This document shows, piece by piece, positions 36,090-41,435 of a DNA stretch of 64,000 nucleotides. The notes beneath the pieces are model-generated. The model had not been told where the DNA came from and did no database searches. It was given only the letters and a program-made list of their open reading frames with translations. Numbering within the stretch: the stretch's first letter is position 1; each line of letters begins with the position of its first letter. This stretch comes from Shewanella sp. NFH-SH190041 (lineage in GTDB: Bacteria; Pseudomonadota; Gammaproteobacteria; Enterobacterales; Shewanellaceae): positions 1,240,001 through 1,304,000 of the forward strand of contig NZ_AP026070.1 in the NCBI RefSeq assembly GCF_024363255.1, written 5' to 3'. The translations under genes were made by a program, and so were the position numbers.

Positions 36090-37181
36090 ATGGCGAAAGA
36101 AACATTAAACAACCTTCATATTTGCGCGGAAAAAGTACTGATTACCCCAGATGAGTTGAAGATCGCATTGCCCATGTCTGCAAAGGCGACAGCGTTTGTA
36201 CGTCGAGCTCGCCAAACCGTTGCTGATATTGTCCATAAACGGGACCATCGCCTGTTAGTGGTCGCCGGTCCCTGCTCTATTCATGATCTTGTAGCAGCAA
36301 AGCAGTATGCGCGGCAGTTGAAACAGCTGCATGATGAATTAAACCAGTCATTTTATATTTTGATGCGGGTCTATTTTGAGAAGCCCAGAACTACCGTAGG
36401 GTGGAAAGGGATGATCAATGATCCAGATATGGATGGCTCGTTTGATGTGGAAAAAGGGTTAAAACAGGCTCGTGAGTTGATGCTGTATCTGGCTGAGCTG
36501 GAGTTGCCGGTGGCGACTGAAGCATTAGATCCTATCAGCCCTCAATATTTATCAGAGTTAGTTAGCTGGGCTGCAATTGGTGCACGCACGACTGAGTCTC
36601 AGACGCATAGGGAGATGGCTTCGGGCCTGTCGATGCCGGTAGGGTTTAAAAATGGAACGGATGGTAAATTAGCAGTGGCGATCAATGCATTGCAGGCGGC
36701 TGCCAGTGGCCACAGTTTTATGGGCATCAATACTCAGGGGCAAGTGGCATTATTGCAAACGAAGGGAAATCCGGATGGCCATGTCATTTTGCGTGGTGGG
36801 ATAGAGCCTAATTATGATGCCCAAAGTATTGCTAGTGCGGAGCAACAATTACACGATGCTGGCTTGAATGCCAGATTAGTGGTGGATTGTAGTCATGGTA
36901 ATTCGGCAAAAGATCATCGGCGTCAGTTGCCCGTATTTCGGGAGATGATGGCGCAGATTGCTGCTGGGAATTGCTCAGTTATCGGACTGATGTTGGAAAG
37001 TCACCTCAATGAAGGACAGCAAGGGACGGATAAACCATTAGCTTCTTTAGCCTATGGTGTATCTGTGACTGATGCTTGTATCAATTGGGTCGATACTGAA
37101 CAGTTGCTGCGCGATGGAGCGGCACAATTGGCTTCAGTTTTACCTGGTCGCTTTGCTATGCTGAAAGCTGCAAATAGCTGA
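36090..37181 (+). CDS. aroF: 3-deoxy-7-phosphoheptulonate synthase (DAHP synthase)
   Basis: 363 residues, a type I-alpha DAHP synthase. It joins PEP and erythrose 4-phosphate to open the shikimate pathway. Active-site stretches are VVAGPCSIHD, MRVYFEKPRTTVGWKG, GARTTESQTHREMASG, PVGFKNGTDG and DCSHGNSAKDH. It is paired with tyrA 15 bases downstream, as for the tyrosine-sensitive isoenzyme AroF of E. coli, so tyrosine feedback is likely but not shown. Confidence 0.93.
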   Translation: MAKETLNNLHICAEKVLITPDELKIALPMSAKATAFVRRARQTVADIVHKRDHRLLVVAGPCSIHDLVAAKQYARQLKQLHDELNQSFYILMRVYFEKPRTTVGWKGMINDPDMDGSFDVEKGLKQARELMLYLAELELPVATEALDPISPQYLSELVSWAAIGARTTESQTHREMASGLSMPVGFKNGTDGKLAVAINALQAAASGHSFMGINTQGQVALLQTKGNPDGHVILRGGIEPNYDAQSIASAEQQLHDAGLNARLVVDCSHGNSAKDHRRQLPVFREMMAQIAAGNCSVIGLMLESHLNEGQQGTDKPLASLAYGVSVTDACINWVDTEQLLRDGAAQLASVLPGRFAMLKAANS

Positions 37182-38339: not shown

Positions 38340-38506
38340 GGAGCGGACATTATTAGTTTTTGATTTGCGGTCTATTTCAGTTTTTAACCTTGGTATCGCA
38401 TTGGGATATTGCACTCTGGCTGAAGCGAACGTATTGTTAATACATAAAGGGCATAACTGTCATAACATGCGGTTCTCTCCATGAGAAACAGATGAGCGGA
38501 GGAGCT

Positions 38507-38839
38507 ATGGATTTGAGTTCCACAGGAAATATGCTGCCCGAAGATGTCAGTCCGGCACACTTGATGTATGGCATGATGTCAGCATTTGCATTAGCGTTTA
38601 TTCCCGTGCTGCTAGCACTGGTGATTAATTTCTCTCAGCACGGTAGTGGCGCTGTGATGCGTAGCCATATTAAATGGCAACGTTGGTCTATGTTGGTATT
38701 TTTATCTCTCAGTATTCTGGCTTGGTTGTTACCTCAGGGGTGGATGGGGCTGGGAGTCTTTGGCGTTGCGGTAGTTTGGTTTGTTCACCGAATCATCAAA
38801 GGCTGGATGGCATTGGCTGATGGTATCTGTATGGCTTAA
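38507..38839 (+). CDS. Small membrane protein of unknown function
   Basis: 110 residues from the ATG at 38507, which has GGAGGAG directly before it. An ATG at 38492 would add five residues, and the choice is not firm. There are three hydrophobic segments (about 22-42, 63-80 and 82-98). SHIKWQRWSM and HRIIKGWMALADG recall DUF4870-type small membrane proteins, but I cannot assign it. It lies between tyrA and the pheA terminator, and a link with aromatic amino acids is not implied. Confidence 0.75.
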   Translation: MDLSSTGNMLPEDVSPAHLMYGMMSAFALAFIPVLLALVINFSQHGSGAVMRSHIKWQRWSMLVFLSLSILAWLLPQGWMGLGVFGVAVVWFVHRIIKGWMALADGICMA

Positions 38840-38960: not shown

Positions 38961-40811
38961 TCAGCGGTATAGCTTGCTGATCTGTTGTCGATGCTGTTGT
39001 TGCGGCTGACAGGGGATTATCAGCCCATTAGCGCTAAGCTCTTTTGGCAGTAATGGACTGTCTTTAGGGGCTTTGACAATGACTGGACAGGGTAATGTTG
39101 TCTGTAATCGTTGCAGTTGAATAATATCCAGCACTTTTTTACCGCTACGGGTTTCATCGCCTGCTTCACATAGGACAATACTTTGATTGCCTGCTTGCCG
39201 AAGTGTATCAAGGGATTGGGTTAATGCAGCAATACTTGCATCTGGATGACGCTCCAGTATTACTGGCAGAGTTTGAGCCCCAGCACAGTTGAGCAATTCA
39301 TTATCAAACATGGCTGAGCCAGTAAGATAAAGCATTTCAGCAGGCAATGGCTGGCTAAGAGAATCCACTGAGCAAAGGGCGGCGATAGGCGCAAGTTGGC
39401 TGTCAGTTAATTGTTGTGCCAAGGTGGCGCTCAGATCGGCTGCAGGGACAATTACGCCCTGGAATCCTTGCTCTCGTAGCGTCTTGAACCAATTGAGTTG
39501 CGCATCATGCTGCTGTAGCTGATGCAATTCAGCTAAGGCAACCGGGTGATCTTGACCTAAGGTGAGATGCTGAGTTTGAATTTGAACCGGTGCCGTTGTC
39601 ATTTGACCATCGGTTTTGGAGGTATCCGGCTCTATTAATAATTGCTTTTGACTTAACTGTGTTGGTGCAACAGTCTCACAAGGATAACAGCCTAATACTT
39701 TGATAAAGCGGGTTAAATTGGCCAGTTCACTGAGTACATCTCGCATATTGACCGCATCAATATTGGCATCTATATCCAAATAGAACATTTCTTCCCAAGG
39801 GGTACCGGCAATGGGGCGAGATTCTAGTTTGGTCATATTGAGTTGATATTTTTTTAATACCAGCAGCGCATCAACTAAGGCACCAGGTTTATGGCCTGTG
39901 GCCATAATCAAGGTTGTTTTAGCCGGTACCTGCTCAGGGACATGGATTGCCTTACGGGCGACGACAATAAAACGACTCTGATTAATCTGCTGATTGGCCA
40001 GATTATCTTTCAGTACCTCCAGCCCATATAACGCACCGCCTTGAGCACTGCCGATGGCCGCAATATCCATACGCTCATTTTGCATGACGGCTTCCATCGC
40101 TGCAGCACTGGAAGCGCAATAGGCTAATGCCAGCTCAGGTTGCTGGCTTAAATAACGGCTGCATTGGCTGATAGGTTGAGGATGGGCATATAACTTAGTG
40201 ATATGGCTAAGTTGTGTTCCGGGTTTGCCCAATAGGCAGTGGCCAACATCAATGGTTGTTTCACCAACAATAGCCAGCCGGGTATGTTGCAATAGATCAT
40301 AAACTTCATTAATCGAGCCGGATGAGGTGTTTTCTATCGGTAAAAAACCAAAGTCAGCATGGCCAGACTCTACCGAGCGGATAATATCATCAAAGCTCTT
40401 ACAGCCTAGCTCCACCATAGAAAATTGGCGCCGCTGACAGTAACGGCTGGCAGCAAGATGAGAATAGGAGCCTTTAGCGCCAAGGTAGGCGATACAGTAT
40501 TGCTGTTTGTCCGTATCAGGATTGGCCTGTTGCTGTAAAAATGCCTGCTGATTTAATACCGAATCTTCAATAATGGTCTGATACAGGCTAAGCACAAAAT
40601 GGGCATCTAACCCTTGTTCTCGCCCCTGGCTCACCAGTCTCGCTAAAAGCTCTTTTTCCCGCTCGGTATCTCGGATAGGGCGGATATCAATCGCTTTGCT
40701 GCGGGCGACATCCAATGCCAGCGTCCGGCGCTTGGCCAGCAGTGCCAGCATATCTTTATCTACTTGGCTGATGGCGGTGCGGAGCTGGCTTAACGCCGGT
40801 GGTTTTTCCAT
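38961..40811 (-). CDS. pheA: Chorismate mutase / prephenate dehydratase with an extra C-terminal DAHP-synthase-like domain
   Basis: 616 residues, against about 386 in E. coli. The chorismate mutase part (1-90) keeps R11, R28, K39, D48, E52 and Q88 at E. coli numbering. The prephenate dehydratase part (about 103-285) ends with SRF at 279-281, where most members have TRF. The ACT domain (about 298-375) has the Phe-binding motifs GALV and ESRP. A linker and about 200 extra residues follow (410-616). Their second half resembles a type I-beta DAHP synthase barrel (NELLNCAGAQTLPVILER, SIVLCEAG, KKVLDI, PCPVIVK), but expected active-site residues are absent (CEAG for CERG, no DVTH motif). Transcription starts at a leader with a Phe-rich peptide. 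Confidence 0.95.
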   Translation of the reverse strand: MEKPPALSQLRTAISQVDKDMLALLAKRRTLALDVARSKAIDIRPIRDTEREKELLARLVSQGREQGLDAHFVLSLYQTIIEDSVLNQQAFLQQQANPDTDKQQYCIAYLGAKGSYSHLAASRYCQRRQFSMVELGCKSFDDIIRSVESGHADFGFLPIENTSSGSINEVYDLLQHTRLAIVGETTIDVGHCLLGKPGTQLSHITKLYAHPQPISQCSRYLSQQPELALAYCASSAAAMEAVMQNERMDIAAIGSAQGGALYGLEVLKDNLANQQINQSRFIVVARKAIHVPEQVPAKTTLIMATGHKPGALVDALLVLKKYQLNMTKLESRPIAGTPWEEMFYLDIDANIDAVNMRDVLSELANLTRFIKVLGCYPCETVAPTQLSQKQLLIEPDTSKTDGQMTTAPVQIQTQHLTLGQDHPVALAELHQLQQHDAQLNWFKTLREQGFQGVIVPAADLSATLAQQLTDSQLAPIAALCSVDSLSQPLPAEMLYLTGSAMFDNELLNCAGAQTLPVILERHPDASIAALTQSLDTLRQAGNQSIVLCEAGDETRSGKKVLDIIQLQRLQTTLPCPVIVKAPKDSPLLPKELSANGLIIPCQPQQQHRQQISKLYR

Positions 40812-40830
40812 AGTAACCTCGGGAATATCA

Positions 40831-40857
40831 TAAAAAAGCCTCCTTAAGTGGAGGCTG
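40831..40857 (-). terminator. pheA attenuator terminator
   Basis: On the minus strand AGCCTCC and GGAGGCT pair around six bases and are followed by six T, ending about 20 bases before the pheA start. An alternative pairing of GCCTC and GAGGC in the segment over the end of pheL could compete with it, as expected for attenuation. Confidence 0.88.
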
Positions 40858-40890
40858 GTTTTACTTTCTTCAGGATAAGCCTAAACCGCC

Positions 40891-40947
40891 TCAATCAACG
40901 CAGAGGCTAAAAAAGAAAGTAAATGAAAGCATGTGATCTTTATTCAT
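40891..40947 (-). CDS. pheL: phe operon leader peptide
   Basis: An 18-codon frame reading MNKDHMLSFTFFFSLCVD, with four Phe codons in five positions (FTFFF), directly before an intrinsic terminator and pheA. Ribosome stalling at Phe codons when Phe-tRNA is scarce would favour read-through, as in E. coli pheL. The first ATG lies almost at the expected transcript start, so it may be leaderless; alternatively the ATG at residue 6 (40932) starts a 13-residue peptide. Confidence 0.85.
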   Translation of the reverse strand: MNKDHMLSFTFFFSLCVD

Positions 40948-41081: not shown

Positions 41082-41435
41082 TTATGCCAGGCTTTCCTGT
41101 TGCTCAATCTCTTCTGAGTCAGTTTCAGGATGCTCTGGTTTATCTGCAAAACGTTTAGCTTCATCTTTATGGGCTAAGCGGTTTAATTGCTTTTCCAGTT
41201 TCTGCCCCATGGCATTGATGGCGTTATACAGGTTTTCGTGTTTGGCTTGAGCAAATAATTCCCCCTGAGGCACTTTGACACTGGCTTCAATTTTGAACAG
41301 AGGTTTTTCTTCGCTGATAATGACGTGGGGATTAATCAGATGTATATCATAGCGTTCGAGTTTTGCCAGACGGCTTTCAACACGTTCGCGAATGGGTGCG
41401 GTAACTTCAAGGTGCTTACTGGTGATCTTTAGCAT
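41082..41435 (-). CDS. raiA: Ribosome-associated inhibitor RaiA (HPF family)
   Basis: 117 residues. MLKITSKHLEVTAPIRERVESRLAKLERYDIHLINPHVIIS matches RaiA/YfiA, which binds the 30S decoding site and silences ribosomes in stationary phase or cold. The acidic C-terminal tail (ETDSEEIEQQE) is like that of RaiA and unlike the short Hpf. Its place upstream of pheA is the same as in E. coli. The 310-base gap 41436-41745 upstream holds no gene; its promoter could not be pinned down. Confidence 0.95.
   Translation of the reverse strand: MLKITSKHLEVTAPIRERVESRLAKLERYDIHLINPHVIISEEKPLFKIEASVKVPQGELFAQAKHENLYNAINAMGQKLEKQLNRLAHKDEAKRFADKPEHPETDSEEIEQQESLA

Follow-up and report, generated by a model that had tools for sequence, protein, structure and literature searches.

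The pheA gene in the window analysed here, a stretch of 64,000 nucleotides from Shewanella sp. NFH-SH190041, encodes a PheA whose C-terminal tail is supported as a fused, catalytically dead (β/α)8 barrel of the type I-beta DAHP synthase (DAHPS) kind by sequence profiles, by its predicted fold and by a series of relatives running from intact to degenerate. A fused, inactive domain of this kind had been proposed by eye in a first-pass annotation of the same DNA, and the three lines of evidence uphold that proposal. We consider it fairly probable that a former DAHP synthase, now retired, has been kept in this tail as a non-catalytic module acting in cis.

The gene occupies 38961..40811 on the minus strand and encodes 616 residues, the length given in the annotation. 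Its chorismate mutase (CM) domain, residues 10-89 (40545..40784, minus strand), scores 67.1 bits against Pfam CM_2 (PF01817; cut-off 27 bits) and 93 bits against NCBIfam CM_P_1 (cut-off 73.7), and its prephenate dehydratase (PDT) domain, residues 107-287 (39951..40493, minus strand), scores 194.4 bits against PF00800 (cut-off 25.2). A probable ACT domain at about residues 297-377 (39681..39923, minus strand) is suggested by the strand/helix pattern of the full-length model and by GALV (310-313) and ESRP (330-333), which we take to be Phe-binding motifs; the Pfam ACT match (E 0.2) is below cut-off. A putatively disordered linker of residues 393-408 (39588..39635, minus strand; pLDDT below 50 in the full-length model) leads to the tail, which spans about residues 409-616 (38964..39587, minus strand). 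The annotation had placed the extra domain at 38961-40190, a span that corresponds to residues 208-616 and is thus too wide.

The CM, PDT and probable ACT domains, the leader peptide and the tyrA/aroF/raiA-like neighbourhood are common to the window and the E. coli-type P-protein (PRK10622). PheA of E. coli has 386 residues and ends approximately at the start of the linker, whereas the window protein is 230 residues longer and scores 535.4 bits against the PRK10622 equivalog model, below its cut-off of 577. Upstream of pheA lies a PheL-like, Phe-rich leader peptide, MNKDHMLSFTFFFSLCVD (40891..40947, minus strand), followed by a candidate terminator hairpin recognized by eye; the Rfam Phe_leader match at 40830-40942 is weak (29.4 bits, E 0.005; gathering score 55). 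A raiA-like ORF, named by eye (41082-41435), lies on the upstream side of the leader, and aroF (36090-37181), convergent with pheA, ends about 1.8 kb from the pheA end, close to the annotated distance of about 2 kb. Apart from one 115-aa ORF, the genes follow the E. coli order: raiA-like ORF, leader, pheA, then tyrA and aroF, both convergent with it. Because gene order and leader match, the locus is the usual one for pheA, with the tail as an addition. The 115-aa ORF (38492-38839, plus strand) contains hydrophobic stretches and lies between tyrA and pheA, where none is annotated at the E. coli locus.

The annotation had also pointed to SRF in place of TRF in the dehydratase. SRF is indeed present at residues 279-281, but it carries no special weight: with near-copies included, the motif reads SRF in 58 of 101 fused proteins (TRF in 40, SRY in 1, not found in 2) and in 16 of the 29 unfused proteins collected. 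A special meaning of SRF was therefore rejected, as it is frequent with and without the fusion. One genome of the genus (G003, L029 and L039) has pheA split into two frames within the dehydratase part, and these two frames were left out of the counts.

Pfam DAHP_synth_1 (PF00793) matches the whole PheA at residues 503-579 with 17.6 bits (E 0.0019) and the tail alone with 19.9 bits (E 0.00038), both below its cut-off of 25.5. The tail alone also matches the NCBIfam models PRK08673 (30.2 bits, E 2.5e-7), PRK12595 (26.9 bits, E 2.1e-6) and TIGR01361 (26.7 bits against a cut-off of 267.75), all far below cut-offs, and PRK12595 on the whole protein reaches 49 bits of its 279-bit cut-off, with the CM part contributing. 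In a sequence comparison with the PDB, type I-beta DAHP synthases rank first for the tail (5j6f, E 6.6e-5; 3nvt, E 2.6e-4). Since the Pfam, NCBIfam and PDB matches agree, the likeness is beyond chance, and the by-eye alignment of residues 500-582 with type I-beta enzymes holds. The tail is confidently predicted to form a (β/α)8 barrel of the DAHPS/KDO8PS kind, to which DAHP synthases are the closest structures in the PDB, and the profiles show no match to an unrelated family; the pTM of the full-length model (0.57) does not fix the placement of the barrel relative to the rest of PheA. With type I-beta DAHPS (PF00793; 3pg8 and 1rzm of Thermotoga, 3nvt of Listeria, 5j6f of Geobacillus) the tail shares the barrel and remnants of GNQQ..LCE, LDL and HLP, but it lacks GPC, KPRT, LKRG, CERG, DPSH and EVHP and scores below the profile cut-offs. 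The CM-DAHPS fusion of the Bacillus/Listeria type (PRK12595) likewise carries CM and type I-beta DAHPS on one chain, but is not known to have PDT or ACT between them.

In alignment with intact relatives, all six of these motifs, presumably the metal and substrate motifs of type I-beta DAHPS, are changed or absent in the window tail, as the annotation had claimed for the catalytic residues. The KPRT loop is deleted, EVHP is lost, and the stretch aligned to DPSH reads VKAPK. GNQSIVLCEAG, residues 541-551 (39159..39191, minus strand), is a remnant of GNQQV(I/M)LCERG in which CEAG replaces CERG by an Arg-to-Ala change, and it stands where the annotation had placed it, as does LPCPVIVK at residues 573-580. 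Glu520 (39252..39254, minus strand) aligns with the LKRG lysine, which we take to belong to the PEP site of intact enzymes, and the adjoining Arg521 is kept. Most of these changes are almost fixed in the genus. Among 67 distinct Shewanella tails, a few of them from close proteins outside named species, 66 have Glu in place of the LKRG lysine and 66 retain the adjoining Arg; all 67 carry Ser or Ala instead of the CERG Arg; and at DPSH, 64 have Asn for the Asp, where the window has Lys, and 51 have Tyr for the His. No Shewanella row of the motif alignment has a GPC motif or a KPRT loop. Agarivorans-type relatives and the protein P0015 share both the Glu and the Asn, suggesting a common first step. 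The window tail itself is among the shorter copies and departs from genus-conserved positions at N503D, N522H, Q544S, H574P and N580K. Taken as a set, ten former ligand positions showed no significant excess of conservation over tail columns drawn at random (mean entropy 1.20 versus 1.66, fraction 0.067).

The fusion extends far beyond Shewanella. Among 247 genomes of the window's order, the tail is matched within an open frame of at least 639 codons in at least 46, from at least 8 of 27 families, as counted by hand from the matches listed, a count that very decayed tails could escape. As lower bounds, fused genes occur in 19/19 genomes of family f1, 12/12 of f9 (including Agarivorans, Aliagarivorans and Alginatibacterium), 3/3 of f14, 3/4 of f12, 1/2 of f10, 5/17 of f25, 2/7 of f20 and 1/5 of f15. 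The fused members of f25 are Oceanimonas, Zobellella and Oceanisphaera, and nine Aeromonas species are unfused; many families of the order show no trace of the fusion among the matches listed. Intact DAHPS motifs are found within the order in three genomes (G036, G081 and G100), and a fourth (G042) is mostly intact, with GPC and KPRT lost. When proteins were searched with an Agarivorans tail, 113 of the best 120 of 1400 matched at least five of eight motif patterns by hand count, and the named proteins among those 120 were mostly from Ignavibacteria, Melioribacteraceae or Bacteroidota. Further intact fusions occur in a Planctomycetota MAG (L124), a Deltaproteobacteria MAG (L134) and the alphaproteobacterium Iodidimonas muriae (L118). 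In a second Planctomycetota MAG (L184) the fused DAHPS domain is degenerate, which likely represents an independent loss of catalysis in a distant phylum. The sampled genomes thus give a series from intact fused enzyme through half-changed forms and a conserved dead barrel to complete absence. In the class-level sample outside the order, PheA rows reaching E 1e-40 share 30-38% identity with the fused query; the 13 class-level PheA rows placed on the trees are unfused, and the sample also holds a few long open frames, e.g. in G436 and G437. One genome of the window's family but another genus (G052; L056 and L069) carries a decayed PheA tail together with a stand-alone intact type I-beta DAHPS.

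A branch of the DAHPS tree with support 100/99 divides 24 fused domains from 35 stand-alone type I-beta enzymes (20 from the order, 14 from the class and 1 from the phylum), and the same split was obtained with 32 or 33 stand-alone rows. This tree covers the less diverged domains; left off as too diverged were L051, whose branch exceeds 5 changes per column, and the tails of f1, f10, f12 and f25, Shewanella and the window among them. For the window barrel, membership in the four-domain fusion is supported by the PheA-core tree and by gene layout. The PheA-core tree separates the PheA of the order, E. coli included, together with the fused PheA of other phyla from ordinary gammaproteobacterial PheA (100/100). 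Within it, fused and unfused proteins are interleaved with 9 changes; its deep forks are weakly supported and its sampling is partial. A single clade of the order's unfused PheA was rejected with the full set (p-AU 1.8e-6) and with a reduced set lacking 12 mostly long-branched rows and four others (p-AU 0.027), and with the latter a single fused clade was rejected as well (p-AU 0.007). Intact and degenerate states change at least four times among fused rows, which makes repeated loss of catalysis probable. The simplest reading, which the trees support, is one fusion followed by several deletions and several active-site deaths; some whole-gene transfer between phyla is likely in addition.

Instead, DAHPS cassettes might have been fused several times, or fused genes transferred, and the unfused PheA of E. 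coli might never have had a tail. Fused genes are patchy across distant phyla, and in L201 and L203 pheA directly adjoins a stand-alone type I-beta gene, a possible and easy source of a fusion. However, the stand-alone neighbours in L201 and L203 fall among the stand-alone enzymes in the 100/99 split, and the reduced core tree rejects both the fused and the unfused clade, which leaves this origin doubtful. L201 and L203 belong to a set of other gammaproteobacteria in which the two genes are near each other on the same strand (L200, L201, L202, L203, L220 and L227).

Under the single-fusion reading, a four-domain enzyme (CM, PDT, ACT and type I-beta DAHPS) would have arisen, probably once, so that the entry reaction of the pathway, its Phe branch and an ACT domain shared one polypeptide. 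Other DAHPS genes may then have made the fused synthase redundant in the lineage of the window's order. Among 28 genomes searched, none of the 16 with a degenerate tail lacks a further PF00793 gene above cut-off in an open frame of at least 341 codons. In genome G000, length alone separates the other PF00793 genes into three of DAHPS size (355-366 codons) and one of KDO8PS size (287). Other DAHPS-sized genes would permit the loss of catalysis in the tail. A genome with the fused synthase as its sole DAHPS would prove that the synthase is active, but each of 15 genomes with a fused gene (14 with an intact fused synthase, and L184 with a degenerate one) had another PF00793 gene, some of these KDO8PS-sized, or a type II gene, so the activity of the fused synthase is not proven in this way. 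Several families, among them those of E. coli, Vibrio relatives and Aeromonas, would have deleted the barrel, whereas in Shewanella and some others it would have lost catalysis but stayed on PheA as a non-catalytic module. There it likely works in cis, keeping PheA assembled or in its Phe-inhibited state, perhaps with a contact through the former pocket as rebuilt by the Lys-to-Glu and Asp-to-Asn changes.

We give such a structural or allosteric role in cis the most weight and binding in trans the second place. In the latter case the barrel would bind a stand-alone DAHPS or another shikimate enzyme and thereby couple the entry of the pathway to its branch point. The annotation, too, had suggested that the domain could bind AroF, or else a ligand. 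G000 offers three possible DAHPS-sized partners besides the fused gene, and complexes of DAHPS with CM are described, as in Mycobacterium (PMC10520331, PMC4281200 and PMC7762937). Against this, the number of possible partners varies, with one DAHPS-sized gene in each of four f9 genomes and three in each of three Shewanella genomes, counts that cover PF00793 genes alone. The possible stand-alone partners, moreover, are presumably type I-alpha enzymes, another subfamily. On balance, binding in trans seems unlikely.

Retention of the tail bears on whether it has any function at all. pheA was found in all 129 genomes of the genus, with a single open frame of 622-716 codons in 128 of them, the exception being the split gene of G003. 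One gene (G316) has one stop within the matched stretch; in another (G332) the frame is open and the query match is limited to residues 1-408, so its tail has diverged. By the Nei-Gojobori method (own script; 23 usable of 1035 pairs from 46 rows, with the window's own branch outside), dN/dS of the genus tail had a median of 0.040 and a maximum of 0.109, and that of the core a median of 0.015; ten disjoint pairs gave tail values of 0 to 0.097. Elsewhere, tail values were 0.16-0.25 in f25 (Oceanimonas and kin; 6 pairs) and 0.089 in f12 (1 pair), and f9 yielded no pair that could be used. The tail is thus under purifying selection in the genus, with dN/dS far below 1, which points to a non-catalytic task; low values could, however, also come from selection against nothing more than misfolding of the translated tail. 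A tail decaying without function, as the S. oneidensis tail was described in PMC1173090, would fit its faster evolution than the PheA core, its absence from many families of the order, and a window copy that is among the shorter ones and off the genus consensus. The low dN/dS, the one long frame in nearly all genomes, the almost fixed derived residues and the confidently predicted fold make such decay quite improbable. The retained predicted fold and the near-fixed Glu-Arg pair in the old pocket might speak for catalysis of some kind, either leftover DAHP synthesis or a reaction new to the barrel. This is highly improbable given that GPC and the KPRT loop are gone from all Shewanella alignment rows and that, of 67 tails, only 2 retain the DPSH His and none the CERG Arg.

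The retired-synthase reading places this series of dead barrels in a classic feedback-regulated pathway. In PMC1173090 (2005), an aroA-I-beta 'pseudogene' is described on S. oneidensis aroQ-pheA, its origin is called unknown, and the figure on the enteric lineage enters the fusion as one event. It is the same fusion in one species, and our results argue against the pseudogene reading given there; retention under selection, wide spread and intact relatives are added here. The Shewanella enzymes treated in PMC10520331 are exported CM-CDT fusions, distinct from the PheA tail. Within the portions of the open-access literature covered, the Shewanella pheA fusion was found in PMC1173090 alone, and nothing was found on an intact fusion, on selective retention or on a descent of E. 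coli PheA from the fusion.

The window tail is apparently a degraded copy of the enzyme that opens the pathway, though one that still serves a purpose, and the existence of relatives whose tail is intact hints that the usual PheA of E. coli may once have carried one. More broadly, and more tentatively, the bifunctional PheA of E. coli and of the whole order may descend from a trifunctional CM-PDT-ACT-DAHPS enzyme, whose DAHPS part would have been deleted several times and elsewhere have become, more than once, a selected pseudoenzyme with a rebuilt pocket controlling Phe synthesis. If this ancestry holds, the short P-protein form of E. coli is secondary.
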